From the NCBI GenBank assembly GCA_002308815.1, contig DBVX01000014.1:1-19227 (forward strand): DNA of 19,227 nucleotides. The letters run 5' to 3'. Below are positions 1 through 18,321 of this stretch, one piece after another (position 1 is the first letter of the stretch; each line of letters starts with the position of its first letter). The notes below the pieces were generated by a model. It was given only the letters and a program-made list of their open reading frames with translations, searched no databases and was not told where the DNA came from. This stretch comes from Bacteroidales bacterium UBA1253 (GTDB lineage: Bacteria; Bacteroidota; Bacteroidia; Bacteroidales; Paludibacteraceae). Position numbers and translations under genes: made by a program.

Positions 1-108
1 CTTACTTTCTGAAAACCAAGCAATGTGCATTTGATTATCAGAGAGTTTCAGGAAATTAAAAGGCTTTTATGAGTTTTATCGGACAGTAATAATAACGAAT
101 AAGACCCG

Positions 109-116
109 TAATTTTG
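109..116 (+). promoter_or_regulatory. Bacteroidota -7 promoter element of the ATPase remnant
   Basis: The octamer TAATTTTG fits the Bacteroidota -7 consensus TAnnTTTG and lies 22 bases before the ATG at 139, which would give a leader of roughly 15 bases. No convincing -33 TTTG/TTG element is visible at the expected distance, so this is a half-supported promoter. It would drive only the broken ATPase gene. Confidence 0.45.
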
Positions 117-138
117 CGGCGTTAATAAAATTACTTTT

Positions 139-673
139 ATGATTGATGATATTTCAGTACTTCGTCAAGCGATGACAAACCGTTTGCAGGCAACAACCAC
201 GTTATTTCACAGGTATTTGTATCATTCCATCAATTGGGACAACCGCTTGATTGGAATCCGAGGTTATCGCGGCGTAGGCAAAACGACATTGGTTCTGCAG
301 CATATCAAAGAGTCATTCAAAGACCGTCAATCAGTACTGTATGCCAGTATGGATCACGGTTGGTTTCAAACTCATACGATTTATGATTTGGCGCAATATC
401 ACTACCAGCATGGCTGCATTGACCGCAAATCCAAATACCGGCACAGCACGGGAAACATTCTTCTATAACCAGCTGCATTCAGCCGGACATGAAGTGACAC
501 TTGCCGTTAAAGGCGACTTCGTGGTCAATCGCCAATATACTTTCGAGGTGGGAGGAGCAACCAAAACATTCAAGCAGATAAGGAACATAAAAGACAGTTT
601 TCTCGCAGTGGATAACACACCAATAGGCGATGTGAACCGCATCCCGCTCTGGCTGTTCGGGATGCTGTATTGA
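139..673 (+). pseudogene. AAA/DUF4143-type ATPase remnant with internal deletion
   Basis: Two pieces of one ATPase family are joined out of frame. The first piece (139 to about 414) starts MIDDISVLRQ and carries a Walker A motif GYRGVGKT at residues 42-49, matching the N-terminus of the Bacteroidota AAA ATPases with a C-terminal DUF4143-like nuclease domain. The second piece (about 410-673, a different plus frame) reads TARETFFYNQL near its start and ends IPLWLFGMLY, both typical of the extreme C-terminus of that same family. Intact members are near 390 residues; here only about 92 plus 85 remain, so the Walker B, lid and most of the C-terminal domain are missing and the frame shifts at the join. 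The start at 139 is supported by the -7 element just upstream. It is convergent with the MORN gene ending at 729. Function is surely lost; the family assignment is from remembered sequence pattern. Confidence 0.8.
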
Positions 674-728
674 GACGGTGATAAGTCAAAGAACTTGCAT
701 ATTCTCAGTTCGTTTTCTTAAAATCGTG

Positions 729-1988
729 TTAGTGCCAATTACGAATCAGTTTTCCATTAGAATATCGGGCCTTTCCCTTAAATCCATTAGGACATATTAC
801 TTTCCATTCACCTTCTGCCTGACCATTCTCATAATTTCCCATATACTTACATCCATTGTCCGAATAAATAGTTGCAGATCCGTTCTGATAACCTTCTATC
901 CATACACCCTCGTTTCGACCACCTGAATAATAATATGTTCCTTCACCATGCCGTAGTCCATCCTTCCAATAACCGACCCATTTTGTGCCATCTTTATAAT
1001 ACATCGTTCCACTACCAGACATTTTATCATCTTTCCAGTTCCTAACATATTTTCTACCATCTGCCCAATAATATGTTCCCCAACCGTCGTAATAGCCATT
1101 CTTAAAGTGTCCTTCATACCTATCTCCGTGTGACGAATAAAGCGTTCCACTTCCTGACATCATACCATCTTTCATATAACCAACATATTTATCACCATTT
1201 ACAAAATAATATGTTCCATAACCATTAGGTCTGTCGTTTTCAAAATACCCTTCATATCTATCCCCATTTGCGTGATAATCTATACCTTTACCATTACGCT
1301 GACTTTTTTTCCAATTACCCACATATTTTTCACCGTTATTCCAAATCATTGTCCCCTGTCCCGTACGTTCTCCTTCCACCCAATCACCCTCATAAGATTT
1401 CCTATCGTTTTTATCCGTTGTTGAAAAATATATTTTTCCTTTACCATTTGGTTTGCCGTATTGTATTTCCCCCTCGTATCTGCCTTCATCCAATTGTAAT
1501 GTGCCTTTACGTGTCCCACTATCAAAATCCACTATTCCAAATAATTTCATAGCCAATCCTTCACAGGATTTTTGCACAACAGGCGGGGTTTCTTCCATCA
1601 ATTTGCTTAAACCTTTAGAAGTCTCTCCCGTTTCTATATTCACAATCTTCACCAGCACAGTCATGTATCCCTGCCATGCACTGGCTTCAGAAACAATTAC
1701 AAAATCTACACCCGCATAAACACCCATCTGCCTGATCAGTGAATCATTCACAGCACCGGATCTTTCAAAATGGTGTTCCTCCAAAACTTTATCAAATGCT
1801 GTACGATCAAATGGATCATATTCATCCGTAGCAGTAACAGCACTTTCCATTGCCCCGCGCACTATTTGTTGGTAGAACGTATTGACACTATTATCAACAC
1901 ATATAGGATTAAGAACCGCTACAGATTTCTTCTGTGCGAATGCTGTCAGCGAGAGGACTGAGAGCAAGATGAGGAATAGTTGTTTCAT
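729..1988 (-). CDS. Secreted MORN-repeat protein with LpoB/CsgG-like N-terminal domain
   Basis: The 419-residue product has a signal peptide (residues 1 to about 19, ending AFAQ). Residues 22-150 form an alpha/beta domain of the LpoB/CsgG/TolB-N type; the landmarks are VAVLNP, FDRTAFDKVLEE, RSGAV, the small-residue stretch YAGVDFVIVSEA and ETGE. From residue 170 to the end there are about ten MORN repeats of the pattern YEGxxxxGxxxGxGTxxxxxG, ending ...RNWH. MORN arrays form elongated beta-hairpin sheets and usually bind partners or membranes; no enzyme motif is visible. It is the last gene of the cluster, 97 bases after the SUMF1-fusion gene, with a hairpin in the gap. It is a close paralogue of 6539-7729 over the N-terminal domain, much less so in the repeats. 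Export is inferred from the signal peptide; periplasm or cell surface cannot be told apart. Confidence 0.85.
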   Translation of the reverse strand: MKQLFLILLSVLSLTAFAQKKSVAVLNPICVDNSVNTFYQQIVRGAMESAVTATDEYDPFDRTAFDKVLEEHHFERSGAVNDSLIRQMGVYAGVDFVIVSEASAWQGYMTVLVKIVNIETGETSKGLSKLMEETPPVVQKSCEGLAMKLFGIVDFDSGTRKGTLQLDEGRYEGEIQYGKPNGKGKIYFSTTDKNDRKSYEGDWVEGERTGQGTMIWNNGEKYVGNWKKSQRNGKGIDYHANGDRYEGYFENDRPNGYGTYYFVNGDKYVGYMKDGMMSGSGTLYSSHGDRYEGHFKNGYYDGWGTYYWADGRKYVRNWKDDKMSGSGTMYYKDGTKWVGYWKDGLRHGEGTYYYSGGRNEGVWIEGYQNGSATIYSDNGCKYMGNYENGQAEGEWKVICPNGFKGKARYSNGKLIRNWH

Positions 1989-2023
1989 TATGTCAGATTG
2001 TTTACCAATTATTCATTAAAGCG

Positions 2024-2045
2024 GCGCAGAAATCTCCGGCTGCGC
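2024..2045 (-). terminator. Hairpin before the second MORN gene (attenuator or weak terminator)
   Basis: GCGCAG at 2024-2029 pairs with CTGCGC at 2040-2045 around a 10-base loop, in the 97-base gap between the SUMF1-fusion gene and the MORN gene. The minus-strand sequence after the stem is only CGCTTTAATG, so there is no real T run. It may be a processing or attenuation site rather than a full terminator. Confidence 0.35.
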
Positions 2046-2085
2046 AGTCAGGCTAATCCATAAAAGACGGATACCCTTCAGCAAA

Positions 2086-3360
2086 CTACGGGAGAACAAC
2101 CACACGGAATCCGAGATTGAAGTTGCGGTACGAAGAAGTGCTGATGTTCCGAGTCGCTACACGGCAATCCCGCGCAAAGTAGTTGTACCAGCTGCCGCCA
2201 CGATTCACGCGCCCAGAACCCGAGGAAGGTCCTGTAGGGTTGTTGGTGTCATAGTTTGTGTAACTGCTGCTATACCAGTCCTTGCACCACTCCCATACAT
2301 TGCCGGACATATCGTAAATGCCGAGGGCGTTGGCACGCTTGGTACCGCATGGGTGGGTGCTGCTGCCGCTGTTGTCCGTGTACCATGCCACGGCATCAAC
2401 CATGTTGCTTCCGGCATACTTCGTTCCGTCCGCGCGGTTTCCGCCGCGCGCGGCGTACTCCCATTGCGCTTCGGTCGGCAGCGTGTAGGTTCTGCCCGTT
2501 TTGTTGGAAAGCAGGCGGCAGAACTCCATCGCCTCGTCCCAACTGACATAATACATCGGATAATCAGGACCGACACCGTTTAATGACCATTGAGGGTTGC
2601 CTTTGTTCTTCTGCTGATAGACGGATGTGCCGACCACCTTCTCCCACTGGGACTGCGTGACTTCAAGCATACCAATGTAGAAACCGTCCACCGTGACGCG
2701 GCGAACGTTTTTCTCATCATCATAGCAGTCGCTCTGCTCACTGGTGCAGCCCATCATGAACTCGCCGCCTTCCACCCAGATCATCTTCATGTTGATGCCC
2801 CATGCATCTTCTGTAAAATCCTGACCGGCTTTAGAGCGAGAATTATGTACACCTCCTACTTTCGGTGATTTGTGTGCAGAGCCGGCTATGGCTCCGAGCA
2901 TCTCTTCTGCCAGTGCATTACAAGAGGCGGGCAATGTGCTGTAATCCTCATTCTTTACGTTGGCATATTGCGTTGCCGGATTAGTCATCTGTCCAGTCTC
3001 AACATTTACCAGATACGCCTCAATGTACAATTGTGAACCATACTTGGTAATAGAAGACACGCAGATATACTGAGCACCTGTCATTACGCCCACTTGTTTG
3101 CGCTGATTATCGTCCACCATACCTGAACGCTGGAAGCCTTGCTCCTTAAGCATCGCATCTACGTCCATACGGGTTAATACCTGAAAATCAGATTGCCATC
3201 CAAACGCCTTGCGCAATTCTCCACGCACCATACTAATCTCCATGGGATTACATTCTGTTGATCCCGGGACGGTAAGCGGCTGTAATAACGCCAATTTAAC
3301 ATCTTCGGCAAATGCTGTCAGCGAGAGGGCTGAAAGCAAGATGAAGAATAGTTTTTTCAT
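2086..3360 (-). CDS. Secreted LpoB/CsgG-like + SUMF1 (formylglycine-generating-enzyme-like) fusion
   Basis: The start is set at ATG 3360-3358, giving MKKLFFILLSALSLTAFA, a clean signal peptide, and an ATGA overlap with the stop of the upstream gene; the frame is open 30 bases further to 3390 but that adds ten residues that break the signal peptide. The product is then 424 residues. Residues 20-155 repeat the LpoB/CsgG-like domain of the MORN proteins (RMDVDAMLKEQGFQRSG, ETGQ). Residues 188-424 are a SUMF1/FGE-sulfatase fold domain: WVEGGEFMMG, LPTEAQWEYAARGG, GIYDMSGNVWEW, VNRGGSW and NLGFR. The two catalytic cysteines of true FGE (CxxxxC before AAR) are not in place: the local sequence is YFARDCRVATR with a single Cys. 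A structural or binding role, as in other non-catalytic SUMF1 proteins such as GldK, is likelier than formylglycine formation. The SUMF1 half looks richer in G+C than the N-terminal half. Confidence 0.85.
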   Translation of the reverse strand: MKKLFFILLSALSLTAFAEDVKLALLQPLTVPGSTECNPMEISMVRGELRKAFGWQSDFQVLTRMDVDAMLKEQGFQRSGMVDDNQRKQVGVMTGAQYICVSSITKYGSQLYIEAYLVNVETGQMTNPATQYANVKNEDYSTLPASCNALAEEMLGAIAGSAHKSPKVGGVHNSRSKAGQDFTEDAWGINMKMIWVEGGEFMMGCTSEQSDCYDDEKNVRRVTVDGFYIGMLEVTQSQWEKVVGTSVYQQKNKGNPQWSLNGVGPDYPMYYVSWDEAMEFCRLLSNKTGRTYTLPTEAQWEYAARGGNRADGTKYAGSNMVDAVAWYTDNSGSSTHPCGTKRANALGIYDMSGNVWEWCKDWYSSSYTNYDTNNPTGPSSGSGRVNRGGSWYNYFARDCRVATRNISTSSYRNFNLGFRVVVLP

Positions 3361-4430
3361 TGTTGTATCTGCTGTTTGATAATTGCACATATTTGGGGAG
3401 AGAGCTGTCGGTAACCCTCACGTGCAGCCTGCTCATAACTGAAAGTCCACGCTCCTTTTTCAGGTTTCAGTTGTTCATTATAAATACGCTGACCTGTGGT
3501 TGTCTTGTCGATAGAGATTTTTGTGTCAATATAGACAACATATTGCGCATCACGACCTTCACCAATCTTATTATATTCGCGGGCAGTAGCGGTAACATAG
3601 ACTGCCCAATCCGATTGGTCTGCTCTGCTTACAAAGGTGCATCCCATCGGGCTTAACGCTCCTTCGATTTCTCCTTTCAGATTTGTATAGTTTTGTCCGA
3701 ACATATACGCATGGCAAGAGATAAAGACATTCAGTCCGTTTTTCAATTGAGCGACAAAATCGATCAAACGATGTTGCAGGTTGCGTGTCTCCTGCAGTTG
3801 CAGGCTTTCCTCGTCCGCGTTCTCATTCACGGCGGCAAGCAGTTTCTGCGCCTCATCCACTTCGGCAAACCGGGGGAGTGTCTTGCTTGCCAGATCGCGT
3901 GCCTGTAGTTTCTGACCATTGCTCGCAAGTTGTTCAATCTGATCCAGCGATGTCTCTATCTTGGTAAGGCACACCGTGATTCTCTTTTCCAGTTGGCGTA
4001 TGAGTGTGCTTTTCTTAACATACGCAAACGCTGCTATATTGCCGTTCTGCGGGTTTTGCCACGCTTCTATCTTCAATCCGGGGATTTCCATATCCACAGA
4101 TGTTTCTGTGTCGGATTTGAAATCGCGCATAGACTGCCGGAAGGTGCCTTCCATGGTTCGTAACGTCTGGCTGACCGCATGATTGACGGTGGTGTTCTTG
4201 ACATGCACCCGGATGGTACTCAAGGCTTCCACTCGTGCAGCATCTTTCATCCGCGACATAGCCGCTTCAAGGCTCTCGTTGCCTTGTTTTTGCCCTTCGG
4301 CGAACCCGACGAAGTACTGTCCTCCCGGGTAGAACGAATTACGCGTGTCATTGTCATACCAGTTCGGCTCCGTCTGCGCAAGGACAGATAGTGAAAGTGC
4401 TGAAAGCAAGATAATTAATAGTTTTTTCAT
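3357..4430 (-). CDS. Secreted LPP20-like domain protein
   Basis: The 357-residue product has a signal peptide (MKKLLIILLSALSLSVLAQ). Residues 20-130 resemble the LPP20 lipoprotein family: PNWYDND, QYFVGFAEG, then an Ala-rich helix of the A..rmkdaARvEAL type. There is no lipobox Cys at the signal-peptide end, so it is probably not a lipoprotein. Residues about 140-210 look helical; the C-terminal third contains an alternating beta pattern (WAVYVTATAREY, YVVYIDTKISIDK) reminiscent of small envelope alpha/beta domains. It starts inside the stop of 4427-5008 (ATGA) and its own stop overlaps the next start in the same way, so the three proteins are translationally coupled. LPP20-like and LpoB/CsgG-like proteins are known to co-occur in envelope assemblies such as the FlgO/FlgP/FlgT set; an analogous partnership here is inference. 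Confidence 0.75.
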   Translation of the reverse strand: MKKLLIILLSALSLSVLAQTEPNWYDNDTRNSFYPGGQYFVGFAEGQKQGNESLEAAMSRMKDAARVEALSTIRVHVKNTTVNHAVSQTLRTMEGTFRQSMRDFKSDTETSVDMEIPGLKIEAWQNPQNGNIAAFAYVKKSTLIRQLEKRITVCLTKIETSLDQIEQLASNGQKLQARDLASKTLPRFAEVDEAQKLLAAVNENADEESLQLQETRNLQHRLIDFVAQLKNGLNVFISCHAYMFGQNYTNLKGEIEGALSPMGCTFVSRADQSDWAVYVTATAREYNKIGEGRDAQYVVYIDTKISIDKTTTGQRIYNEQLKPEKGAWTFSYEQAAREGYRQLSPQICAIIKQQIQQ

Positions 4431-5008
4431 CCTTTTACTATTTTTCTTTTGGCAAGATTGTATAGATATGTATAGTTCGGATACAAATCCTCCCTTCTTC
4501 GGTCTTTTCGTGTTTTCAGGATAAGAGGTTCTAATCTCTGATGAGTATCGATAATAGTTTCTTTAAAATAACCTACTATTAAATCGCTTGCAAAGTCGTC
4601 TTTTGCCATAATGCCAAGATATTCCATTTTCTTACAGAAATGCTCTATCTTATTATATGCCTTTCGGATTTCCTCTTTTGTTTTGTTTTTTGTTTCTTCG
4701 TCAATATCCAAATCCTCTCTTTTCAAGTTCTGGATTACTATTTTCTTAAAATCATCTAAACCTACCTCGTCAATCCCCAAATAATCTTTTATTGTTGCAA
4801 TATCATTAGTATATTTTTTCGACATAATATAATCAAGGCTTTCTGCATTTTTAACTCCATCAAATGTATTTCGTATTGATTCAGAGAATACACTTAATTT
4901 TCTTTTCTCTTTTTCATTTTTTAACGAGAAAAAAGCTACAATTGCAGCAATAGTTGTTGCCATGGCCGTTACCGCTGCAAATAACCAGTTGACTTCATAT
5001 AATATCAT
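4427..5008 (-). CDS. Small membrane-anchored protein, unknown function
   Basis: The 193-residue product begins with one hydrophobic segment (residues about 7-28, NWLFAAVTAMATTIAAIVAF) and continues as a charged, mostly helical domain rich in Lys, Glu and Asp (KNEKEKRK, EETKNKTKEEIRKAYNKIE), ending basic. That is the build of N-terminally anchored proteins with a cytoplasmic helical domain; it resembles DUF4760-type proteins in layout, but I cannot assign it firmly. It lies 23 bases after the Cys-rich peptide gene and overlaps the next gene by ATGA, so it belongs to the same transcript. Being next to a candidate RiPP precursor, it could be an immunity or localisation factor. It has no transporter or peptidase motif. 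The region is AT-rich compared with the genes to its right. Confidence 0.7.
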   Translation of the reverse strand: MILYEVNWLFAAVTAMATTIAAIVAFFSLKNEKEKRKLSVFSESIRNTFDGVKNAESLDYIMSKKYTNDIATIKDYLGIDEVGLDDFKKIVIQNLKREDLDIDEETKNKTKEEIRKAYNKIEHFCKKMEYLGIMAKDDFASDLIVGYFKETIIDTHQRLEPLILKTRKDRRREDLYPNYTYLYNLAKRKIVKG

Positions 5009-5031
5009 AGTTCTTCAATTTTTAATGAGAT

Positions 5032-5187
5032 TTACCAACCGTGATCACAAGAATCACACATATCACAGGAATCCCCGTCACCTGAATCGCACCCGAAACA
5101 GTTATTGGTGCTGTTTTCTTGCAGATTCACATTGCTGAAATCATACATAATGATTTTCGTTAAATCAGTTTTCTTACTTGTTTTCAT
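5032..5187 (-). CDS. Cys/Asp-rich small peptide, candidate RiPP precursor
   Basis: This 51-codon ORF is read by eye on the minus strand: ATG at 5187-5185, stop TAA at 5034-5032. An in-frame ATG at 5193 would add two residues (MR). The first 29 residues (MKTSKKTDLTKIIMYDF at the start) form a leader-like segment without Cys; residues 30-51 form a core with five Cys, CFGCDSGDGDSCDMCDSCD followed by HGW. Cys30, 33, 41 and 44 each have Asp exactly four positions on (Asp34, 37, 45, 48), so four overlapping CX3D motifs are present; Cys47 would face Trp51. CX3D is the crosslinking motif of PapB-type radical SAM enzymes, which join Cys sulfur to the Asp beta carbon. It starts 9 bases after the stop of the radical SAM gene. 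No signal peptide or double-Gly cleavage site is evident. A metal-binding role through the CxxC pairs is the main alternative. Confidence 0.75.
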   Translation of the reverse strand: MKTSKKTDLTKIIMYDFSNVNLQENSTNNCFGCDSGDGDSCDMCDSCDHGW

Positions 5188-5196
5188 ACGCATTAT

Positions 5197-6516
5197 CTAT
5201 TTGATTTTTAATATTTTCTTGTTTAGAAGGAAGGCAACTGCATCATTGATGTGTTTGTCAGTTGGTGTCACTTCAAATTTGTTGCACAACTCTCCAAAAC
5301 AGATTGCAGATAATTTTTGCAGACAGACGACAAAGTCATAGAAGATTTGATTCACCATACAATAAACATCATCTGTGGCATTATATATCAAATACGCATT
5401 TTCATCTTCACGCCTTACCATAATAACCGAAGCTATCTTCAATTGTGTATTAGGCTGCAAAACATATTCTTGTTTATCATTAATGGGAGTAAGTAGCGAC
5501 AATCTTCCAATACACCACATATCCTTTAGATTCCAATCGCCGCTATATACTTTTGCACTTGTCCGGCAACCACCGTTACAGCGGTTGAGCCATAAGCAGT
5601 CTTTGCACTCCTCTGGGATATATTTTACAGAACGCCAATCAGCCATTTTCTGCCAAATATCTCGCAAATCTTCTTCCAACAAGTTTCCGTATGAATAAGG
5701 ATTATGCGCACACGGGCGTACGTTACCATTGCAAGAGACGGCAATAACAGTCCTTCCTGCTTGGCATTTTCTATTTAGAAATGAGTGTCTGCCTCTCAAT
5801 ACTTCTTCTGGAAACACACATTTAGGCAATGCCTCCAATATGTCCACCTTCATTTTTAGGTTCTCCTCAATCCATAACAAGTCTGCTATCACTTTGCACA
5901 CATCTTCAACGCTCAACAGCAAATCTAGACGCGGATATTCTACATTCAGTCCCATTGGAGTAGCAGCAAACGACTTGCATCCTAATGACTTCATCTTCTC
6001 TGCCGTCAGACGAACTTCATGTAGATTGTCTTTCGTCACTACCATATTAACGGTGAAACGGACACCTGTAGCAACTAACTTTTTTATTTTACTTTCAAAT
6101 AACTTGTAGTTATCAATTCCGACTAATTTGGCAAACGAACTTTCTTCTCCCGAGGGGCAAGATGTCAGCACTCCCACTTTTTGCTCTTTGAGAAATTGAA
6201 TAAAGTCATCATCTGCAAGAGTTAGATTAGAATTGAGTGAGACTTTGGTGTTTTGGGCTTTTAATAAACAGATAACCTTTTTCGTTAGTTCTTTCTTTAT
6301 CAGTGGTTCACCGCCTGTTACTATTACGCTGAAAATCTGATTGTCTATCAGTTTCTGCGCACATGCCAACACCGTCTCGTCACTCACTTTGCGAGAAGGA
6401 CGATTCTGCACGTCTGAATCCAGATTATAACAATGTACACACCGATGATTGCAGTAATCTGTTATCTCCAACTGCGCAATTAATGGCAAAGACAAATATT
6501 TTATCTCAAATTTCAT
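5197..6516 (-). CDS. Radical SAM/SPASM peptide maturase with C-terminal PqqD-like domain
   Basis: The 439-residue protein opens with the radical SAM cluster motif CNHRCVHC (Cys22, 26, 29) and GGEP at 68-71, the S-adenosylmethionine-binding motif. A full SPASM domain follows: Cys251, Cys262, Cys269, then CKDCLWLNRCNGGC (Cys304, 307, 313, 317) and Cys335, enough ligands for two auxiliary 4Fe-4S clusters. Residues about 350-439 look like a PqqD-type winged helix: YVLQPNTQL, a short beta hairpin (AYLIYNATDDVYCMVN), and a terminal helix ending FLLNKKILKIK. This is the fold used as RiPP recognition element (RRE) to bind leader peptides. Such enzymes act in the cytoplasm and install thioether or C-C crosslinks in ribosomal peptides. 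The gene sits 22 bases after the MORN gene and 9 bases before the Cys-rich peptide, its likely substrate. It ends in TAG. The RRE call is from pattern and position, not from a profile search. Confidence 0.9.
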   Translation of the reverse strand: MKFEIKYLSLPLIAQLEITDYCNHRCVHCYNLDSDVQNRPSRKVSDETVLACAQKLIDNQIFSVIVTGGEPLIKKELTKKVICLLKAQNTKVSLNSNLTLADDDFIQFLKEQKVGVLTSCPSGEESSFAKLVGIDNYKLFESKIKKLVATGVRFTVNMVVTKDNLHEVRLTAEKMKSLGCKSFAATPMGLNVEYPRLDLLLSVEDVCKVIADLLWIEENLKMKVDILEALPKCVFPEEVLRGRHSFLNRKCQAGRTVIAVSCNGNVRPCAHNPYSYGNLLEEDLRDIWQKMADWRSVKYIPEECKDCLWLNRCNGGCRTSAKVYSGDWNLKDMWCIGRLSLLTPINDKQEYVLQPNTQLKIASVIMVRREDENAYLIYNATDDVYCMVNQIFYDFVVCLQKLSAICFGELCNKFEVTPTDKHINDAVAFLLNKKILKIK

Positions 6517-6538
6517 GAGATTTTACTCTGTTATACGA

Positions 6539-7729
6539 CTAATGATAATTAGTTGTTAGTTCGCCTTTCGTAAACCATCCTTTCAAATATTTCCCTGAAG
6601 ATGTTTTCATTGTCCACTCTCCATCAGGTTCGCCATTAACAAATTGACCATATTGTTCAGAGCCATCACTTCCATACACTTGAACAAAACCAGAAAGCAC
6701 TCCATTAGTCCAATTTCCAACCAGTTTACCGCCCGACCAATAATATGTTCCTTTCCCTTCTCTCTTATCATTTTTCCAAGATCCCTCGTATCTATCTCCA
6801 TCAACACCATGCATTATTCCCCATCCATGCGCTTTTCCATTGACAACATCTCCTTCATATTTTTCTCCAGTCTTATGATACAAAGTGCCTCTACCTGTCA
6901 ATTCATCATCTTTCATTTCGCCTATATATATCTCTCCACTATAAAGATGTATAGTAACATTTCCGCTCCATTTCCCTGCGCGCGATGTTCCTTCTATCCT
7001 ACTACCATCTGGTGTAATTATTGTTCCAGAACCGGACCTTACCCCATTACACATATCGCCCGTATATTTGGAACCATCTGTCCAAATGATGGTACCCTTA
7101 CCTGATGGGATTCCATTTATCCAATCCCCCTCATAACTCAAACGCATAAGATCATTATTATCTTTATAATACATTTTTCCTACTCCGTGAGGTTTACCAT
7201 TTTTTATTTCTCCTTCATATCTACCTTCCGGCAATTGTAATGTTCCTTTTCGTGTCCCACTGGCAAAATCAATTATGCCAAACACTTTTTTTGCCAACTC
7301 TTTACATGTTGACTGAACCACAGGTGGTGTCTGTTCCATCAGTTCACTTATGCTTTTAGACGATTCCCCAGTTTCGATATCCAATATCTTCACAAGAACT
7401 GTCATATAGCCATCAAAAGCACTAACTTCTGTAACCAGAACAAGATCTACTCCTGCATATATACCCATTTGTCGAATTTGCGAATCATCAACTGCACCTG
7501 ACCTTTCAAAATGATGTTCCTCTAATACTTTGTCAAATGCCGTGCGATCGAATGAAATAAATTCATCTGTTGTAGTGACAGCACTTTCCATAGCACCACG
7601 CACTATCTGTTGATAAAACACATTAACACTATTATCCCTGCAAATTGGGTTGAGGACAGCCACCTTCTGTTGCTGCGCAAATGCTGTCAGCGAAAAATGG
7701 ACAGCAAAGATAATTAACAGTTTTTTCAT
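6539..7729 (-). CDS. Secreted MORN-repeat protein with LpoB/CsgG-like N-terminal domain (first copy)
   Basis: The 396-residue product has a signal peptide (residues 1-19, ending LTAFAQ), an LpoB/CsgG-like domain at about 22-150 (VAVLNPICRDNSVN, FDRTAFDKVLEEHHFERSGA, YAGVDLVLVTE, DIETGES), a bridge with GTRKGTLQL, and about nine MORN repeats from residue 170 on (RYEGEIKNGKPHGVGK, KYEGDVVNGKAHGWG, RYEGSWKNDKREGKG). Its first 170 residues are nearly the same as those of 729-1988, while the repeats have drifted. It lies directly upstream of the radical SAM gene with a 22-base gap, which ties the exported MORN protein to the peptide-modification genes. It follows a 71-base gap with a GC hairpin. 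No enzymatic motif is visible; binding or scaffolding at the envelope is the likely role. Confidence 0.85.
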   Translation of the reverse strand: MKKLLIIFAVHFSLTAFAQQQKVAVLNPICRDNSVNVFYQQIVRGAMESAVTTTDEFISFDRTAFDKVLEEHHFERSGAVDDSQIRQMGIYAGVDLVLVTEVSAFDGYMTVLVKILDIETGESSKSISELMEQTPPVVQSTCKELAKKVFGIIDFASGTRKGTLQLPEGRYEGEIKNGKPHGVGKMYYKDNNDLMRLSYEGDWINGIPSGKGTIIWTDGSKYTGDMCNGVRSGSGTIITPDGSRIEGTSRAGKWSGNVTIHLYSGEIYIGEMKDDELTGRGTLYHKTGEKYEGDVVNGKAHGWGIMHGVDGDRYEGSWKNDKREGKGTYYWSGGKLVGNWTNGVLSGFVQVYGSDGSEQYGQFVNGEPDGEWTMKTSSGKYLKGWFTKGELTTNYH

Positions 7730-7757
7730 TGTTTGTTGTTTTTATTATGTAGCGCAA

Positions 7758-7782
7758 CCGAGGGAGGTATCAGCCCCCTCGG
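7758..7782 (-). terminator. GC-rich hairpin between the coiled-coil gene and the MORN gene
   Basis: CCGAGGG (7758-7764) pairs with CCCTCGG (7776-7782); two more inner GG/CC pairs (7766-7767 with 7774-7775) are possible past a bulged A. It lies just after the stop of the gene at 7801 on the minus strand. The stem is strong but the downstream minus strand reads TTGCGCTACATAATAAAAAC, with no T run. It may partly terminate transcription or protect the downstream mRNA. Confidence 0.45.
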
Positions 7783-7800
7783 CGCAAAAGGAAGAAACAA

Positions 7801-8592
7801 TTATTGATTAATTATTTCTTGTAGAGCCTCCTGAGATTTGTTTTTGAAGTGTTCATCAAAATCCTTTTTGAAAGACTGGTAATCGGTGTCCACTTTCAAC
7901 TCCTCGTCTTTCTGAATTCCCTCATAGATGGGCTTGAGAAGTTGATCCTCGCCCAATTCAATAACGATGTATGTCTTGAATATACGCTCTCCGTTCTGAA
8001 CATATGTTTTTGTCTTTCTGCAAGCAATACGATAGCCGGTGGCTTGGTCAACCTCTGTCATAGCCATACCTTCCACGCGGCGGATTGACTCCCGTTTGAC
8101 ATTCTGGCGCACGGATTTCTTGTAATTGGTAAGCAGTGCCTGCACCTTGGTGGATATTTGCGAACCCAGTTCCTCTATCGCGGCAGACCGTGCTATCTCG
8201 ACTGAGAGTTCCTGCTCAAAGTCCTCTCCGGTACCACGGGCGCGGATAAGATTGGCGGTGCTGGCAAATTCCATACAGGGTTCGTCAAAATCCACTTCCT
8301 GCAGTGCGGCATTTTCTTCCGCTTTTTTCTGTTTTGCTTTTGCCTCTGCTTCCGCAGCCTGGCGTTCGGCTTCAGCTTTGGCTGCCCGCTGTTCCGCCTC
8401 TTTCTTGGCATTGGCAAGGCTGTCCATCTTCTGCTGGTGGCGGAGTTCATCCTCTTCTCTCTTATAACGCTGCTCGCGTTCCCACTGTTCTTTCTTCGCC
8501 GCTTTCTTGTCTTTGCGGCTCTGTGCCTGCATCGGCATTGCCATAGCCAGTACCATCGCTACCGCAGTAGCGTAAAACAAAATCTTTTTCAT
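7801..8592 (-). CDS. Secreted coiled-coil protein with LPP20-like domain
   Basis: The 263-residue product has a signal peptide (MKKILFYATAVAMVLAMAMP, cleavage near MQAQ), then residues 25-95 of almost pure Lys, Glu, Arg, Gln and Ala (KKEAEQRAAKAEAERQAAEA), a long single helix or coiled coil. From about residue 100 to 220 an LPP20-like domain is suggested by ASTANLIRARGTGED, an Ala-rich helix SVEIARSAAIEELGSQI, and a strand pair with YRIACRKTKTYVQNG. No lipobox is seen. The same domain type occurs at the start of the 3357-4430 product. It is the first gene of the cluster; the hairpin at 7758-7782 separates it from the MORN gene, so it may be transcribed partly on its own. A periplasmic scaffold or spacer role is the best guess. 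Confidence 0.75.
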   Translation of the reverse strand: MKKILFYATAVAMVLAMAMPMQAQSRKDKKAAKKEQWEREQRYKREEDELRHQQKMDSLANAKKEAEQRAAKAEAERQAAEAEAKAKQKKAEENAALQEVDFDEPCMEFASTANLIRARGTGEDFEQELSVEIARSAAIEELGSQISTKVQALLTNYKKSVRQNVKRESIRRVEGMAMTEVDQATGYRIACRKTKTYVQNGERIFKTYIVIELGEDQLLKPIYEGIQKDEELKVDTDYQSFKKDFDEHFKNKSQEALQEIINQ

Positions 8593-8660
8593 AGTGTGTT
8601 GAATTTTAGTTTGTTTTGTGCCTACTCACTTACGGCTTTTCGGCATCCTCCGTTATTAAA

Positions 8661-8747
8661 TCACGTATCATTTTTTAGGTACTTTATCGGATGGGGTCTT
8701 TTATTCGGACACGCGGGCGCGTACCGTATGTTTATCAGACCACTCAT
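8661..8747 (-). CDS. Possible 28-residue small ORF upstream of the cluster
   Basis: On the minus strand ATG at 8747-8745 opens 28 codons ending TGA at 8663-8661. The peptide begins MSGLINIRYAPACPNKR and ends YLKNDT. It lies in the leader region between the antitoxin terminator and the gene starting at 8592. There is no visible ribosome-binding site and no other coding evidence; random occurrence of an ORF this short is likely. Confidence 0.2.
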   Translation of the reverse strand: MSGLINIRYAPACPNKRPHPIKYLKNDT

Positions 8748-8771
8748 ATAATTCACCAGACCATACCATAC

Positions 8772-8812
8772 CAACAAAAGCGGTAACCCGCATATTGGAT
8801 TACCGCTTGTTG
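8772..8812 (-). terminator. Terminator of the toxin-antitoxin operon
   Basis: AAGCGGTAA (8778-8786) pairs perfectly with TTACCGCTT (8800-8808), and CAAC (8772-8775) with GTTG (8809-8812) past a two-base bulge. On the minus strand the stem ends in CTTTTGTTGG, giving a short T run, 20 bases after the antitoxin stop at 8832. It is well placed as an intrinsic terminator. Confidence 0.65.
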
Positions 8813-8831
8813 GGATGATGTGAGATGTACT

Positions 8832-9134
8832 CTATGCCAAACTGCGCGTCAGTTCAAGGCGCAAGCCCAGCGCATTGACAATCTTCATAAAACTGGAAAA
8901 AGTCGGGTCTATCAGCCCGTTCTCCACCCGCGAGATATAACTCTTGCTCGTGCCGGTACGGCGCGCCAGTTCCACCTGCGTTATGCGTTCTTCCTTCCGG
9001 GCTTCCTGAAGCGCAAGTCCCATATAATATGCACGGGCACGATTATCAAACTCCTCCCGTTCGGGAGATCCCACATCGCCGTATTTTTTTGCCAAGACAG
9101 CACTGTAACTGGTTAAATTAGGATTTGCTTGCAT
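8832..9134 (-). CDS. higA: XRE-family antitoxin, HigA-like
   Basis: This is a 100-residue protein with a helix-turn-helix of the Cro/XRE type at residues 51-73 (ITQVELARRTGTSKSYISRV then ENG), preceded by a helical N-terminal half and ending with LRLELTRSLA. It follows the Gp49/HigB-type toxin frame and overlaps it by 17 bases (9118-9134), the usual toxin-first order of HigBA pairs. Antitoxins of this kind neutralise the toxin by binding it and repress their own promoter; an inverted repeat between the -33 and -7 elements upstream (9482-9502) is a plausible target. Unlike its toxin partner, the antitoxin frame is intact. How it is translated after the toxin stop at codon 11 is unclear, since coupling would be lost. 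Confidence 0.85.
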   Translation of the reverse strand: MQANPNLTSYSAVLAKKYGDVGSPEREEFDNRARAYYMGLALQEARKEERITQVELARRTGTSKSYISRVENGLIDPTFSSFMKIVNALGLRLELTRSLA

Positions 9135-9447
9135 AATATTCCTCCTTTAGTTTGATAGCCTTTTCTAATTCTTTTTGCGGCGTTTTTTGACTTTTCTTAT
9201 GAAAGCCATTGAACAGCACAACTATGTTCCCATTGTCAAAAATGAAAAACACCCTATAAATGTTACTTTCACATTCGGCACGTAATTCATATACATCATC
9301 ACGCAAGTATTTTACAAATTTCTTACTTACTTTATCTTGCGACTCCAATAGTGACAAAGCATAATCAATCTTGTCAACTACCTGTTCTGACAATGTTGCC
9401 AAGAAATCATAAAACTAACTCTTGTACACGTAGATATCACGTCTCAT
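9118..9447 (-). pseudogene. higB: HigB/RelE-superfamily (Gp49-like) toxin interrupted by an in-frame TAG
   Basis: The natural start is ATG 9447-9445, about 26 bases after a good -7 element. The frame reads MRRDIYVYKS, then TAG at 9417-9415 (codon 11), then FYDFLATLSEQVVDKIDYAL and on through YELRAE, YRVFFIFDNGNIVVLFNGF and HKKSQKTPQKELEKA, the hallmark of Gp49-like RelE-fold toxins that cleave mRNA on the ribosome. Family members, as I remember them, have Tyr at this site (YKSYF), so a one-base Tyr-to-amber change is likely. With the stop read through, length is 109 residues, normal for the family. The only downstream restart is a TTG at 9402, which would drop the first beta strand. Other genes here end in TAG (2086, 5197), so TAG is not recoded. 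Most likely an inactive toxin with a retained antitoxin; a sequencing error must be excluded. Confidence 0.75.
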
Positions 9448-9472
9448 ACCTTATGTATATTCAAAACTGCCG

Positions 9473-9504
9473 CAAAGGTACTGCAAGTTTCAATATCTTG
9501 CAAC
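9473..9504 (-). promoter_or_regulatory. Promoter of the toxin-antitoxin operon
   Basis: On the minus strand TACCTTTG (9480-9473) is a perfect TAnnTTTG -7 element. GTTG (9504-9501) sits 20 bases upstream as the -33 element. Transcription would start near 9466, about 19 bases before the ATG at 9447, which supports that start for the toxin frame. Confidence 0.75.
9482..9502. promoter_or_regulatory. Inverted-repeat operator candidate in the toxin-antitoxin promoter
   Basis: TGCAAG (9482-9487) and CTTGCA (9497-9502) form a perfect 6-base inverted repeat with a 9-base spacer, exactly between and partly over the -33 and -7 elements. XRE antitoxins commonly bind such repeats to repress their own operon, so this is the likely HigA site; binding itself is inference. 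Confidence 0.5.
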
Positions 9505-9620
9505 TTTTGACACATTTTTTCCACAATTTACGCACAATCTTCTTTTTACGGTAATCCAATACGTCAAAGACCTCACAGTCTGACCAATGACATCTTTCCA
9601 TTATGCTTTTATGTACACAT

Positions 9621-9648
9621 AAAAAGAGCGCAGACTTCGCTATTGCTC
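9621..9648 (-). terminator. Terminator-like hairpin at the end of the structured RNA
   Basis: On the minus strand GAGC (9648-9645) can pair with GCTC (9629-9626), with an internal GC/GC extension or an alternative AGCG/CGCT stem, immediately followed by TTTTT (9625-9621). The T run favours minus-strand transcription of the neighbouring rod-shaped RNA. The stem is imperfect. Confidence 0.5.
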
Positions 9649-9830
9649 ATCTACGCGCAAGGACCTTCGCACTGCCCCCAAAGTCAAACAAACAACAATG
9701 AAACCTGCGCCGATATGACAACCCGTCCGCCAAGAAAGGCAGGACGGGTACAAATGTCATACCCGCAGGCGCAATCGTTACTTTGTTTCTGACTTTGGTT
9801 TGTTCAAAAGTGTGCGAAGCTTTTGCGCGT
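9621..9830 (-). ncRNA. Candidate structured non-coding RNA, possibly 6S-like
   Basis: Nested complementary blocks fold 9653-9830 into one long interrupted rod: 9653-9660 with 9823-9830; 9665-9672 with 9812-9819; 9678-9685 with 9791-9798; 9686-9692 with 9782-9788; 9706-9711 with 9768-9773; 9715-9720 with 9755-9760; 9722-9728 with 9742-9748; and a tip 9729-9731 with 9738-9740. Between the basal and apical halves lies an open bubble (9693-9705 opposite 9774-9781). A rod of about 180 bases with a central bubble is the architecture of 6S RNA, which binds RNA polymerase as a promoter mimic. The strand is chosen from the hairpin plus T5 after 9653 on the minus strand and from a TTTG just before 9830; the plus strand lacks a -7 element upstream. 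No protein is encoded. Identity as 6S is inference from shape only; a long decayed repeat is the alternative. Confidence 0.45.
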
Positions 9831-10084
9831 CAAACAACAAAGCGTCAATAAACGCCTTTTCAATATGTAATGAAATCCCTCCAACCCTCTCCTATAAAGG
9901 AGATCGGCGCAGATCGGATTCCGTGGAACGAGGGCGGCAATATTGCGGACACTCCGCACACCGAACTCCGTTCATCGCGCAAAGTTGCCCCGATATTTCG
10001 ATATACGCAAGTAAAATCCGGAAAATCAGGGCAATCGCATCAAAATTTTCATTTTTTTGATAATTCCTTGTACTTAGTGAAGGT

Positions 10085-13024
10085 TTACCGCATCATCGGG
10101 GGCGGTCCCATCGGCATCTTTCCCGACCCGGGCGTATTCCCCGACTCAATCATCTCCTGCATGTGTCCAGCCATTCCTTTCGCTTTCAGGTCGCCCATGC
10201 GGTTGAACTTGTACGTGAAAGTCAGCAGGAAATACGTCGGCAGGGTGTTGGCTTTCTGATAGCGGACGTAATTCTCGCCGACGGTCTGGATGATGTTCTT
10301 CTTCTGATGCAGTATATCAAAGGCTTTGAGCGACAGGGTGGCGGCGTTCCACGTCTTGTCGATGGAGGCGTTGAGCAGAATCTCGTTCACATCCGTAAGT
10401 CCCGTGTAGCCGTAACGGGCGGTGTAACCGCAGTCGGCGGAGATGTTCCACGACTTGGGCAGGTGCAACTGCACATCCCCTGTCACCGTCCAATCCACCA
10501 CGTTCGTTACGGAATTGGCTGTCAGATTGTTCTGCGTGCGTGAGTAACGGACGTTTCCGGTAAGACCGACATCCACCACATCGTGCGTCATACGGAGCGT
10601 CAGATTCTCGCTCACGTTGAAGTTTCCCGTCCGGCTTTCCTCACCCAGTCCGAAGGTGTTTTGGTCAATCCACTGCTCAATGACGGAGGATGTGCCTTCG
10701 CGGCTGATGTACGCCAGACGCTGGTTGTAGCCGATGGCGGTACGGGTGTGGAACTGCATCAGTTTGTTGGCGAACGGCGTGTTGAACATCAGATCGGCAC
10801 TCACGTCCCAGGGTATGCCCGATGCGTTTACGGTCTGTTGGTAGAGTTTGCCGGTCTCATCGTAGATGGAGTTATTGACCAGCGCGTCCTGGGTCACGTT
10901 GCCGTGCAAACCCGTCATCAGGCTCCAGAACTTCTCGGCGTTGAACTTGGAGTACATCCCGTGAACGGAATGCTGAAAGGCGGGGCGCAGTCCCAGATTA
11001 CCAACTGTCTCGTTCATCGCGTCGGAGTTGTTGCGCACGGGTTCCATCTGGGTGACGGACGGTTGCGTGTTCGTGCCGCGATAGAATACGCGGGCGAACT
11101 CTTTCTTTCCGAGTTTGTATTTAAGGCGCACATTCGGACTCCAGTTCCAAGCGTAAATGGTCGTGTCGCGGTGGAGCGTTGTGCCGTAATAGGTCAGGTT
11201 GCGCGTCTGTGAGGGATTGAACTGCGCGCCGGCTGTCAAGTCAAGATTGTCTTTGATGAAGCGGTAGTTCAGTCCTATTGCCTCCTGATAGAAGCGGTTG
11301 CTCAGACGGTTGGAGTATTCGTTGTTGTAGATATAGTCTCCTGCCGCAAGGTCTTTGTCATATTGGTTCTTGTTGCTTTCACGCAAATTGGTGCCAAACA
11401 TCAGCGTAGTTTCCAAAAAGTGGTTCTTGCCGGATATGGGTTCCACATACGATGCGCGTATGCGTACACTGACTGCATCGTTGCCGGAATTAGTATGTTG
11501 GTCCACCTTGGCACTATCAATGAGGTTATCGTGTGCATACGTTTCGGTGTTCCCTTTTGTATCGGTGAACTGCACATTGCTGTTGAGGGTGACGGAACGG
11601 CCCGGACGGAGGAACTTATGGTTGTAGATGACACGCAGGCGCGCACCAATCTCGTCCGAATTGGAGTAACGGTTCTGGTAGCCGTCACTCATCTGCGTGC
11701 TGTCCGACAGACGCATGTAGTTGTACGCCGAATAGCCGTCGGAACGCTTGTTGGTGTAGGTCAGATTGGGCTGGAAAATGATTTTGTTGAGCGTGTCAAT
11801 CTGGTATTCCAGTTCCAAGCGTGCCTGTACGTCCCATGCCCAGTTGCGTTTGTTGGTCGAATCGAGATTATGATACGTTTCATCGCCCGAATAACTGTCC
11901 TTGGTGGCGGAAGAGGTGGTGGTGTTGTAGGAATGGTTGAGCGTGCCGTCCCCGCCGAAAGCCATAGATGTCTGGCTGTCTATTTTCTTCAGTTTCTTGT
12001 TCAGGTCGATGTTGGTGTTCACGCCCAGATTCTCGCTCCATGTGATGCCCGAGTTGTTGCTGCCTGCGAAGAAACCTCTTCCGCGTCCCGAACGGATGTC
12101 GTTGGTGTTGTTGGCACTTCCGATGATGGTCGTCTGCGTCTCGCCCGAAAGGATATTGGTGAATATGCCTGCCGTATAGCGGAAATCGTCTTGGAAGAAA
12201 TGTGTTGCTTTCTCGCCTGCCGTCTTGCCGTATTCGGGGTCAGCGTAGTTGAACCATCCCTCGTTCTGCGTCACCATATCGGCACCCGCCCCCACATTGT
12301 AGTTTCCGAACATCCCTTTCTTCCTGTTCTCCTTGAGGGTGAGGTTGATGATGCGCTCCGTCTCGTCATCCTCGAAGCCGGTCATCTTGGCGGTTTCCGA
12401 TTTCTCGTCTATCACCTGTATCTTCTCAATCATCTCGGCGGGTACGTTCTTGGTTGCGGACTGCACGTCATTGCCGAAGAACTTCTTGCCGTCAATGCGC
12501 ACGCCCGTAATCTTCTCCCCGTTGACGGTCACATTGCCCTCCTTGTCCACCTCCACGCCGTTCATCTTCTTGAGCAGATCCTCCACCATGGCGTTCTCAT
12601 TGACCTTGTAGGCGGCGGTGTTGTATTCGATGGTGTCGCCTTTGACCACCATCTCTGCGGCATGACCTTTCACGTCCACTTCGCCGAGGTTCTGCACCAT
12701 CTCGGTCAGACGGATAGTGCTTGCCGTAATCACTTTTGCCGCGCCGCCTGTCTTTTGGTTCACTTCCACATTGACCGCTTTCTCCTCGTATCCGATAGCC
12801 GAAACAACGATGCGGTACTTCCCTTCCTGAATACGCTGGATGTAGTACACGCCGTCAATGTCGGCTTGCGTACCTTGAATCATAACAGAATCCTGAAACA
12901 ATCGCACTGTGGCAAGTTCGACAGGGTCGCCAGATGCGGCATTGACCACCTTGCCGGTAATGACATATTGTGCTGAAGCCGTGATGCTTGCCAGCAGACA
13001 GATGAATAAGGTTTTGATTTTCAT
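10085..13024 (-). CDS. Outer-membrane beta-barrel protein with carboxypeptidase-regulatory-like domain (TonB-receptor-like)
   Basis: The 979-residue product has a signal peptide (residues 1-18, ITASAQ), then a carboxypeptidase-D regulatory-like beta-sandwich at about 21-105 (ITGKVVNAASGDPVELATV, GKYRIVVSAIGYE), and a plug-like domain at about 115-235 (DTIEYNTAAYKVNENAMVED, GEKITGVRIDGKKFFGNDV, IEKIQVIDEKSE). The remaining 740 residues are alternating amphipathic strands of a large barrel. This is the layout of the Bacteroidota outer-membrane beta-barrel family related to TonB-dependent receptors; substrate is unknown and no SusD partner lies next to it. The C-terminus is extended by a Met/Pro/Gly-rich tail (KMPMGPPPMMR) rather than ending in an aromatic residue. 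It stands 73 bases after the ABC exporter gene; a weak -33/-7 pair (TTTG 13077-13074, TACTTAAG 13055-13048) may give it its own promoter. Confidence 0.85.
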   Translation of the reverse strand: MKIKTLFICLLASITASAQYVITGKVVNAASGDPVELATVRLFQDSVMIQGTQADIDGVYYIQRIQEGKYRIVVSAIGYEEKAVNVEVNQKTGGAAKVITASTIRLTEMVQNLGEVDVKGHAAEMVVKGDTIEYNTAAYKVNENAMVEDLLKKMNGVEVDKEGNVTVNGEKITGVRIDGKKFFGNDVQSATKNVPAEMIEKIQVIDEKSETAKMTGFEDDETERIINLTLKENRKKGMFGNYNVGAGADMVTQNEGWFNYADPEYGKTAGEKATHFFQDDFRYTAGIFTNILSGETQTTIIGSANNTNDIRSGRGRGFFAGSNNSGITWSENLGVNTNIDLNKKLKKIDSQTSMAFGGDGTLNHSYNTTTSSATKDSYSGDETYHNLDSTNKRNWAWDVQARLELEYQIDTLNKIIFQPNLTYTNKRSDGYSAYNYMRLSDSTQMSDGYQNRYSNSDEIGARLRVIYNHKFLRPGRSVTLNSNVQFTDTKGNTETYAHDNLIDSAKVDQHTNSGNDAVSVRIRASYVEPISGKNHFLETTLMFGTNLRESNKNQYDKDLAAGDYIYNNEYSNRLSNRFYQEAIGLNYRFIKDNLDLTAGAQFNPSQTRNLTYYGTTLHRDTTIYAWNWSPNVRLKYKLGKKEFARVFYRGTNTQPSVTQMEPVRNNSDAMNETVGNLGLRPAFQHSVHGMYSKFNAEKFWSLMTGLHGNVTQDALVNNSIYDETGKLYQQTVNASGIPWDVSADLMFNTPFANKLMQFHTRTAIGYNQRLAYISREGTSSVIEQWIDQNTFGLGEESRTGNFNVSENLTLRMTHDVVDVGLTGNVRYSRTQNNLTANSVTNVVDWTVTGDVQLHLPKSWNISADCGYTARYGYTGLTDVNEILLNASIDKTWNAATLSLKAFDILHQKKNIIQTVGENYVRYQKANTLPTYFLLTFTYKFNRMGDLKAKGMAGHMQEMIESGNTPGSGKMPMGPPPMMR

Positions 13025-13097
13025 ATAGGGTTGTTTTATTGATTGTCCTTAAGTAGAAAACAATTGAATTTTGCAAAAAACGTGCCAAGTATCTCTT

Positions 13098-14960: not shown

Positions 14961-15940
14961 ATTTGCAGGTAGCGTTTGATTTGTTCCAACAGCAGTTCCC
15001 CGTCATCCAACGCGACTTCTATCTCAATGGGGAAGAGTTTGTCTTTCAGACTGTCCGACAGTTCGACGGCGAGCAGGCGGGCGTAGTCCTTCTCGGTAGT
15101 GAAAACGATGTCCGCTTGTTCGGCGGCTTCCGTTATATGCCTGATGTCCGCTTTGGTGAAGCGGTGATGGTCGGGATAGGCAATGTGGGGGACATCCCCT
15201 ATGTGCTGTAAAAGATAATCGGGACGCGCTATGCCGGTCAGCAGCAGCGCGTTCTTGAACTTGGGCAGCGGCTGGTAGCGGATGCCGGAGAAGAACAGGT
15301 TCTGATAGGCAGGCAGTTGCAGACGGTTGCTCGCCACACGGCGGTCGATAGGTGTCATTGTGTCCGGACACTTGGTCACTATCACGGCGTTCGCTTTCTG
15401 GCTCTGGCGCGCGAAATCACGCAGTCTTCCGAGCGGCAGCAGACGGTCGTCTGTATAAAGACGGTCGGCGGTGGTGAGAAGGATATAGACCCCGCACCGT
15501 AGCCGCAGGTATTGGTAGGCGTCATCCAGCAGTACCACCTGTACTTTCGGACAGCGTTTCAGCAACTGCTCAATGCCCTCAACGCGATTCCGGCAGACGG
15601 CTATCGGAACATTGGGGAACTTCCTGTGCAGTTGCATACACTCATCGCCCAGCGTGTCAGCGGTGCTGCTCTCGTCCGCAAGTACAAAACCCCGCGAGCG
15701 GCGGCGGTAACCGCGTGACAGCACCGCTACCTTGTACCGCGAACCGAGTTGCCGTATCAACCATTCGATATGAGGGGTTTTGCCCGTCCCTCCAACCGTG
15801 AGATTACCCACGCAGATAGTGGGTACGCTGACCTCACGGCTGTGGAGGATATGCATATCGTACAGCAGGTGGCGGATGCCTATCGCCAAACCGTACAGCC
15901 ACGAAAGCGGCGCGAGCAATATGTTGCGGAGTGTGTCCAC
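14951..15940 (-). CDS. lpxK: Tetraacyldisaccharide 4'-kinase
   Basis: The 329-residue protein transfers phosphate from ATP to the 4' position of the lipid A disaccharide precursor at the inner-membrane cytoplasmic face. Residues about 5-25 are a hydrophobic membrane-associating helix. The P-loop is GNLTVGGTGKTP (45-56), the characteristic LpxK form. Further family landmarks are LSRGYRRRSRGF, the DDAYQYLRL stretch (family usually DDGFQH), and FTTEKDYARL near the C-terminus. Length fits the family (320-380). It lies 12 bases after sppA and overlaps the ABC exporter by 10 bases, pairing lipid A phosphorylation with a probable flippase. Confidence 0.93.
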   Translation of the reverse strand: MDTLRNILLAPLSWLYGLAIGIRHLLYDMHILHSREVSVPTICVGNLTVGGTGKTPHIEWLIRQLGSRYKVAVLSRGYRRRSRGFVLADESSTADTLGDECMQLHRKFPNVPIAVCRNRVEGIEQLLKRCPKVQVVLLDDAYQYLRLRCGVYILLTTADRLYTDDRLLPLGRLRDFARQSQKANAVIVTKCPDTMTPIDRRVASNRLQLPAYQNLFFSGIRYQPLPKFKNALLLTGIARPDYLLQHIGDVPHIAYPDHHRFTKADIRHITEAAEQADIVFTTEKDYARLLAVELSDSLKDKLFPIEIEVALDDGELLLEQIKRYLQICI

Positions 15941-15952
15941 AATGAAAGCGCA

Positions 15953-18315: not shown

Positions 18316-18321
18316 CGTCTG

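Follow-up and report, generated by a model that had tools for sequence, protein, structure and literature searches.

In the freyrasin system, the radical S-adenosylmethionine (SAM) enzyme PapB joins Cys of its precursor PapA to the β-carbon of Asp. According to the accessible part of its description (PMC9413430), PapB accepts Cys-Xn-Asp with n = 0–6, and also Glu, in nested peptides it favours CX3D above CX0D and CX6D, and the cross-links of native PapA are either in-line or nested. A different acceptor, Thr, is given for the ranthipeptide CteA in the accessible part of PMC8326336. Here, we describe a locus of Bacteroidales bacterium UBA1253 (contig DBVX01000014.1, positions 1 to 19,227; this whole stretch of 19,227 nucleotides is referred to as the window), in which a radical SAM/SPASM enzyme (5197–6516), a short Cys/Asp-rich peptide (5032–5193) and a 193-aa DUF4760 protein (4427–5008) are transcribed in this order on the reverse strand. 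The locus is a conserved cassette for a ribosomally synthesized and post-translationally modified peptide (RiPP); its precursor belongs to a new family, and its partner gene was unexpected. Comparison of related cassettes suggests that the peptide's end was exchanged together with the membrane protein, while the enzyme stayed much the same. We propose, with a probability of roughly 60%, that the leader is bound by a RiPP recognition element (RRE) of the enzyme, that the core is closed into a ladder of Cys-to-acid thioethers, and that the product acts on, or is recognized by, the cognate DUF4760 protein.

The enzyme (439 aa) combines, as RiPP radical SAM maturases do, a CX3CX2C motif with a SPASM domain. 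Its radical SAM domain (residues 17–173, 5998–6468, reverse strand) holds C22, C26 and C29, its SPASM domain (5512–5766, reverse strand) holds the Cys at 251, 262, 269, 304, 307, 313, 317 and 335, and the Pfam scores for Radical_SAM (68 bits), SPASM (40.1 bits) and Fer4_12 (30.1 bits) all exceed their cut-offs. The three motif Cys and the eight of the SPASM region are invariant in 24/24 aligned enzyme sequences; in distant relatives, C335 (L040 and L042) or C262 (L041) is absent. Among the 523 homologues found, the best 120 share 70–100% identity. When the best 25 of 79 NCBIfam families (E ≤ 1) were compared, the general SPASM domain model was the only one to reach its cut-off, and the enzyme stayed below that of every equivalog-type model. 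Weak profile matches include the sactipeptide maturases AlbA (58.5 bits) and StsB (54.9 bits). The sactisynthase SkfB takes the top row of the VIA-align 2 structure comparison, whose rows span enzyme residues 7–329, and its structure 6efn is also among the Protein Data Bank (PDB) profile matches. An identity as a defence system was dropped, since PADLOC returned viperin models only (best 48.5 bits).

The peptide gene encodes 53 aa from its first ATG, 3 bases behind the enzyme, or 51 aa from the ATG at 5187, 9 bases behind it. The first-pass annotation, made on the 51-aa version, had seen here an uncharacterised RiPP pair; both open reading frames (ORFs) lie where it had placed them, and the relatives bear the pairing out. 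For comparison we used the window and 12 loci (L033–L044) found by scanning a single genome for each species, several whole-genome matches being taken as the same loci. L044 is outside the pairing count, as its sequence ends inside the enzyme. In all 12 judgeable loci (the window and L033–L043), one or two precursors directly follow the enzyme, with two in seven of them. The annotation had named homologues without the small ORF, or a Cys/acid pattern that is not kept, as arguments against a pair; the homologues do carry the ORF, and the pattern is conserved. The peptide ORF is thus a genuine gene, a chance ORF being excluded by the conserved pairing.

The precursors share a leader (in the window YDFSNVNLQENSTNN, 5101–5145, reverse strand) followed by a variable core. 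A profile of 19 peptides found 161 related peptides at E ≤ 10 among 222 candidates. The best 120 of these 161, with E values from 1.7e-16 to 1.7e-9, have the common leader xYDFSNLxLQENSxxN and a variable core rich in Cys, Asp and Asn. Counted back from the core, position −14 is D in 117/120, −13 is F or Y in 120/120, −7 is Q in 110/120 and −1 is N in 119/120. The motif is clear in 8 of the 11 fetched loci and looser in L040–L042, the peptides of which are the least alike and whose enzymes are 57–61% identical to that of the window. With a short precursor, a conserved leader and a variable core beside the enzyme across species, the two genes have the make-up of a RiPP pair. Stand-alone precursors were absent from 120 genomes of the family (E ≤ 0.01), save the window's own precursor and two weak, stop-containing matches. 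The first-pass annotation had not recognised the precursor family, and no NCBIfam model matches any of the 19 precursors at E ≤ 0.01; judged by its sequences, the family is new.

Two observations on the precursor regions stand apart. Read in an alternative frame, the core of the last precursor is free of stops, encodes a very hydrophobic (VIVIV-like) stretch and runs on into the ORF of the membrane protein (L033:3239, L034:11687, L038:11550, L039:11639 and L041:2330). In the genome of L036, a separate ORF (L075) has a TCSCSCNCTCGCNCNA stretch and weakly matches the FibroRumin precursor model (22.5 bits, cut-off 45).

Three observations go beyond the first-pass annotation, namely a third gene, the second precursor of seven loci and an apparent mosaic exchange. 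The third gene lies 23 bases from the precursor in the window, on the reverse strand, and its product matches DUF4760 (PF15956, 31.3 bits, cut-off 25). It has one N-terminal helix, which by inspection looks membrane-spanning, and an all-helical domain (model with a predicted local distance difference test score, pLDDT, of 82). A relative stands 3′ of the precursor(s) in 10/12 loci; in L040 and L042 its place after the peptide is taken by a second, different radical SAM gene (L040:11608–12978, L042:1826–2923). Foldseek gave no match for the fold at E ≤ 0.001 (best E 2.3), and PADLOC gave nothing for the four membrane proteins tried. In L043, a locus from the window's own genus, the enzyme is frameshifted into two overlapping ORFs (10001–11208), and both precursors and the membrane protein stay open despite this.

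Across eight loci, the membrane proteins are 29–67% identical in pairs, against 70–86% for the enzymes (L043 being represented by its C-terminal enzyme piece), and the two sets of identities are uncorrelated (r −0.11). In L038 and L039, for example, the enzymes are 86% alike and the membrane proteins 31%. The window peptide resembles the second, Trp-ending precursor of the two-precursor loci. In the eight loci with such a second precursor of the main family, the ungapped last 8–16 residues follow the membrane protein with r 0.78–0.82 (16–44 of 40320 permutations as good) and the enzyme with r −0.18 to −0.23. L037, without a Trp-ending peptide, and L040 and L042, without a membrane protein, were omitted; with L041 added, r rises to 0.82–0.85 (0–3 of 20000 permutations). 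First precursors (seven loci) track neither protein clearly (r −0.23 to 0.22). This tail test is post hoc, because it was adopted after identities of the whole core aligned with MAFFT, judged noisy on such low-complexity sequence, had given r 0.18 (16.5% of shuffles) for second precursor against membrane protein. As an outside check, precursors and membrane proteins were joined by equal length of their source sequences (2611, 2900, 4340 and 208414). All four pairs are of the expected type, although pairing by length is not proof of linkage. Three peptides ending in CDMCDSCDHGW are paired with the membrane-protein type of the window, L033 and L038; the fourth, which ends in CDCDCDSRW, is paired with that of L036 and L039. 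A fifth pair (3583), with a peptide lacking the terminal Trp, was not counted. The type of membrane protein thus seems to track the tail of the second precursor and not the enzyme (r about 0.8, post hoc).

The rival account that survives best concerns this co-variation, and is compatible with the chemistry proposed here: neighbouring DNA would have been exchanged together, so that physical linkage alone ties tail to membrane protein. The genes adjoin, and no co-variation is seen between leaders and membrane protein (r −0.20), a result that a breakpoint within the precursor would predict. On the other side, the correlation is present in each of three stretches that make up the membrane protein (r 0.75, 0.82 and 0.64), and L036 and L039 continue with different genes. 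This would equally fit the exchange of a single DNA tract and does not decide the matter; we give linkage alone slightly less than an even chance. A more far-reaching and tentative idea is that of a polymorphic RiPP system, comparable to polymorphic toxin systems, in which a constant enzyme would serve exchangeable cores and each second-precursor core would come with its own DUF4760 protein as an effector/immunity or ligand/receptor pair. The peptide would then be a ladder of overlapping Cys-acid thioethers, in a ranthipeptide-like class of Bacteroidales.

For the thioether ladder itself, the evidence lies in the cores. Their start was defined by N/D, then C/Y, then F/Y/V, a pattern which fits 120/120 listed precursors, and spacings were counted on the 106 unique cores among them. 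Cys after the first are directly followed by D, N or E in 655/686 cases, whereas in the 105 cores starting with Cys the residue behind this first Cys is F (74), Y (30) or V (1). The precursors found through the enzyme behave likewise, with D/N/E after 113/117 later Cys and after 0/16 first ones. This is what one would expect if each Cys were joined to the acid after the next Cys, since an acid is then called for behind the later Cys and none behind the first. Among the cores ending in Trp, D or E follows the last Cys in 46/47.

The first-pass annotation had taken CX3D as the motif, with the spacings Cys30-Asp34, Cys33-Asp37, Cys41-Asp45 and Cys44-Asp48 in 51-aa numbering. These four are exact in the window core (CFGCDSGDGDSCDMCDSCDHGW, 5035–5100, reverse strand), and the motif was upheld for the window's subtype, but not as the unit of the wider family. 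Neighbouring Cys are three apart in 346/685 pairs and two apart in 154/685; where another Cys stands at +3, D/E/N is found at +4 in 342/346. In the wider listed family, most CX3D spacings therefore follow from CDxCD repeats, with CDCD (CX2D) as the second common form, and the conserved unit is a C[D/N/E] dyad. A reading of CX3D as a mere by-product of CDxCD was dropped for the window's subtype after the result for its second Cys, Cys33, which has no Cys at +3. In 10/10 unique Trp-ending cores without a Cys at +3, position +4 is D (3) or E (7), while an acid stands at +2, +3 or +5 in none, and at +6 in 7/10. One of 200000 shuffles of the spacer matched this pattern, a figure that is not a strict probability as the ten cores are related. 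An acid at exactly +4, either D or E, favours CX3(D/E) thioether ladders in this subtype.

In the proposed working mechanism, the C-terminal domain of the enzyme would bind the leader, and the enzyme would join core Cys thiols to side-chain carbons of acids about four positions downstream, or three positions downstream in CDCD stretches. The Asp directly after one Cys would thus serve as partner of the Cys before it, and overlapping thioether rings would result, arranged as a ladder. For the window peptide, we predict the four links C30-D34, C33-D37, C41-D45 and C44-D48, with a mass change of −8 Da. C47, the fifth Cys, whose +4 residue is Trp51, would stay free. The product may then act on, or be recognized by, the cognate DUF4760 protein, most simply with the latter as immunity or receptor partner. 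Two further statements of the first-pass annotation did not hold. It had set nested rings apart from the 'separate CX3D units' of freyrasin, yet native PapA has in-line or nested links (PMC9413430, accessible part), and its GDGDS 'hinge' is a variable spacer in relatives.

Several points weigh against this mechanism. Asn is the +1 residue in 118 cases, and its role as an acceptor with a PapB-like enzyme is putative. Where no Cys stands at +3, D/E/N occurs at +4 in 72/429 (17%), below the background of 486/1518 (32%), and in 12/70 for the enzyme-found set. Cores not ending in Trp often place the acid elsewhere: in the 13 comparable ones, +4 is occupied by P (11), D (1) or C (1), the 11 Pro belonging to CEA[ED]PC, and where the next Cys stands at +9, an acid is found at +5 of 21/22 Cys. 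The C[D/N/E] rule is broken in the distant L040 (1/5 Cys) and L042 (1/2), and kept in L041 (3/3). The core counts are not independent, because the cores are related by descent, and the leader conservation in the 120 listed precursors is partly due to selection, because their candidates were gathered via shared five-letter words; the same leader is, however, present in the precursors obtained by way of the enzyme (16 from nine loci). Finally, the enzyme scores 78.8 bits with the PapB model NF047865, against a cut-off of 340, and the SPASM part of its structure model has a pLDDT below 50.

Two other chemistries are conceivable. The peptide could bind metal, its CxC and CxxC motifs and acids acting as chelators, with the enzyme making another change such as an epimerisation or a single cross-link. 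Short Cys-Cys spacings are typical of metal-binding Cys clusters, and here the spacing is 2 or 3 in 500/685 neighbouring pairs, with acids at +1, +4 and (7/10) +6 of Cys33. The missing D/N/E after the first Cys would however be left unexplained, and, as a weak point, the annotated recurrent neighbours are not metal genes by Pfam, most neighbours having merely been clustered; we regard this option as unlikely. Sactipeptide-type links from Cys to α-carbons of various residues, with Asp serving solubility or metal binding, are in keeping with the SkfB, AlbA and StsB matches, but D/N/E after nearly all later Cys, F/Y/V after the first, and a position exactly +4 of Cys33 that alternates between D and E are unexpected with a free acceptor, and we regard this option as unlikely too.

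The proposed mechanism would further involve recognition of the leader. The first-pass annotation had seen a leader-binding domain in the enzyme, which now appears probable. A predicted structure with no winged helix in residues 350–439, named there as a refuting result, was not obtained. While the model as a whole has a mean pLDDT of 65, and residues 248–347 are below 50, residues 355–438 are predicted at pLDDT 75–90 as strands (358–361, 365–369, 374–379 and 384–389) followed by three helices (390–402, 407–413 and 421–432). We place a probable PqqD-like RRE at about residues 355–437 (5206–5454, reverse strand), which may bind the YDFSNLxLQENSxxN leader. Compared by hhalign with 20 PqqD proteins of Bacteroidales relatives, the enzyme C-terminus scores 26.5 (P 3.4e-4, probability 37.9%), more than all of 100 column shuffles, which peak at a score of 17.0 (probability 2.2%). 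Pfam PqqD matched none of five C-terminal enzyme segments, and NCBIfam WgkC matched one of three weakly (E 0.052). When the domain was compared with PDB profiles, the matches were six chains, all weak (best E 0.027), and their names point to neither an RRE nor a RiPP protein.

The enzyme is rare in the groups sampled. It occurs in 2/358 genomes of the window's family and in 3/393 genomes drawn from the order (the window's genome counted in both), and in 3/104 genomes of a second family, whose matches appear to be loci already counted. All 12 loci are metagenome-assembled genomes (MAGs) or uncultured by title, mostly labelled Bacteroidales or Bacteroidia, with one each titled Lachnospiraceae, Christensenellaceae and Prevotellaceae (bin labels taken as given). 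Yak rumen, water buffalo reticulum or sheep cecum is mentioned in four of the titles. Such a patchy presence suggests that the cassette has spread horizontally. Its G+C content is 0.39 for the enzyme, 0.38 for the peptide and 0.31 for the membrane protein, with 0.39 for an adjoining MORN gene, compared with 0.48 for the window. Phage matches were absent, and no relative was confirmed in viral contigs. Ten plasmid records matched at just 24–27% identity, and the window's membrane protein had no plasmid match.

Genes beyond the cassette mostly differ between loci, and the window and L043 share several. A C39-type exporter was absent from the Pfam-scanned proteins, most neighbours lying outside that scan. 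In the window, the cassette is flanked by proteins with signal-like N-termini (729–1988, 2086–3390, 3357–4430 and 6539–7729), including two MORN-repeat proteins, whose CsgG matches do not reach the cut-off, and a fusion of CsgG with FGE-sulfatase. Members of the same BLAST cluster also stand beside the cassette in L034, L036 and L043, by chance or through a functional link. A small gene pair at 8832–9402, which we take to be a HigBA-type toxin-antitoxin by its looks, has relatives of both genes in L043.

We found no published description of the cassette in the open-licence literature. According to the accessible part of a survey of the Hungate1000 rumen cultures (PMC13289728), most ranthipeptide clusters belonged to Bacillota, Bacteroidota accounting for 2 of 254, and ranthipeptides are without well-characterised antimicrobial activity. 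The survey used the model TIGR03973, to which the family described here would be invisible, as none of the 19 precursors matches it at E ≤ 0.1. Since the natural cores vary in number, spacing and D/E/N identity under closely related enzymes, they form a ready substrate series for the choice of cross-linking partners. The matched membrane protein offers a direct handle on function.

Set against known systems, membership in the PapB, SCIFF, GeoRSP or FibroRumin groups was rejected, as the scores stay below the cut-offs of the curated models (GeoRSP, 87.7 bits against 400). The cassette resembles FibroRumin (TIGR04135/TIGR04136), going by the model names, in its Cys-rich precursor and radical SAM enzyme, but the enzyme scores 10.8 bits against 400, one of 19 precursors matches at E 0.048, and the 12 genomes held no FibroRumin match over the cut-off. 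With the SCIFF ranthipeptides (CteA/CteB) it shares a short Cys-rich precursor beside a radical SAM enzyme; it differs in the missing TIGR03973 match and in the proposed acidic acceptor, as opposed to the Thr of CteA (PMC8326336, accessible part). The same part of that paper describes Asn as a β-carbon acceptor of a Cys thioether in NxxcA, a likeness to the Asn-containing cores. In NxxcA the acceptor precedes the Cys by three residues (Cys23-Asn20), whereas here D/E/N is depleted at −3 (22%, against 38% in shuffles). From PapB/PapA the cassette is set apart by cores made of C[D/N/E] dyads, with CX2D besides CX3D and much Asn, by its occurrence mostly in MAGs labelled Bacteroidales or Bacteroidia, and by the two precursors in 7/12 loci and the DUF4760 membrane partner. 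The two systems are alike in the SPASM radical SAM enzyme, the Cys/Asp-rich core, the CX3D/CX3E spacing and the possibility of both in-line and nested links (PMC9413430, accessible part), and the window peptide has the four CX3D motifs asked of a PapB precursor, a trait not general in the wider family. A member by none of the models tested, the cassette thus appears, by analogy, to be close to the PapB-type ranthipeptides in its proposed working principle.
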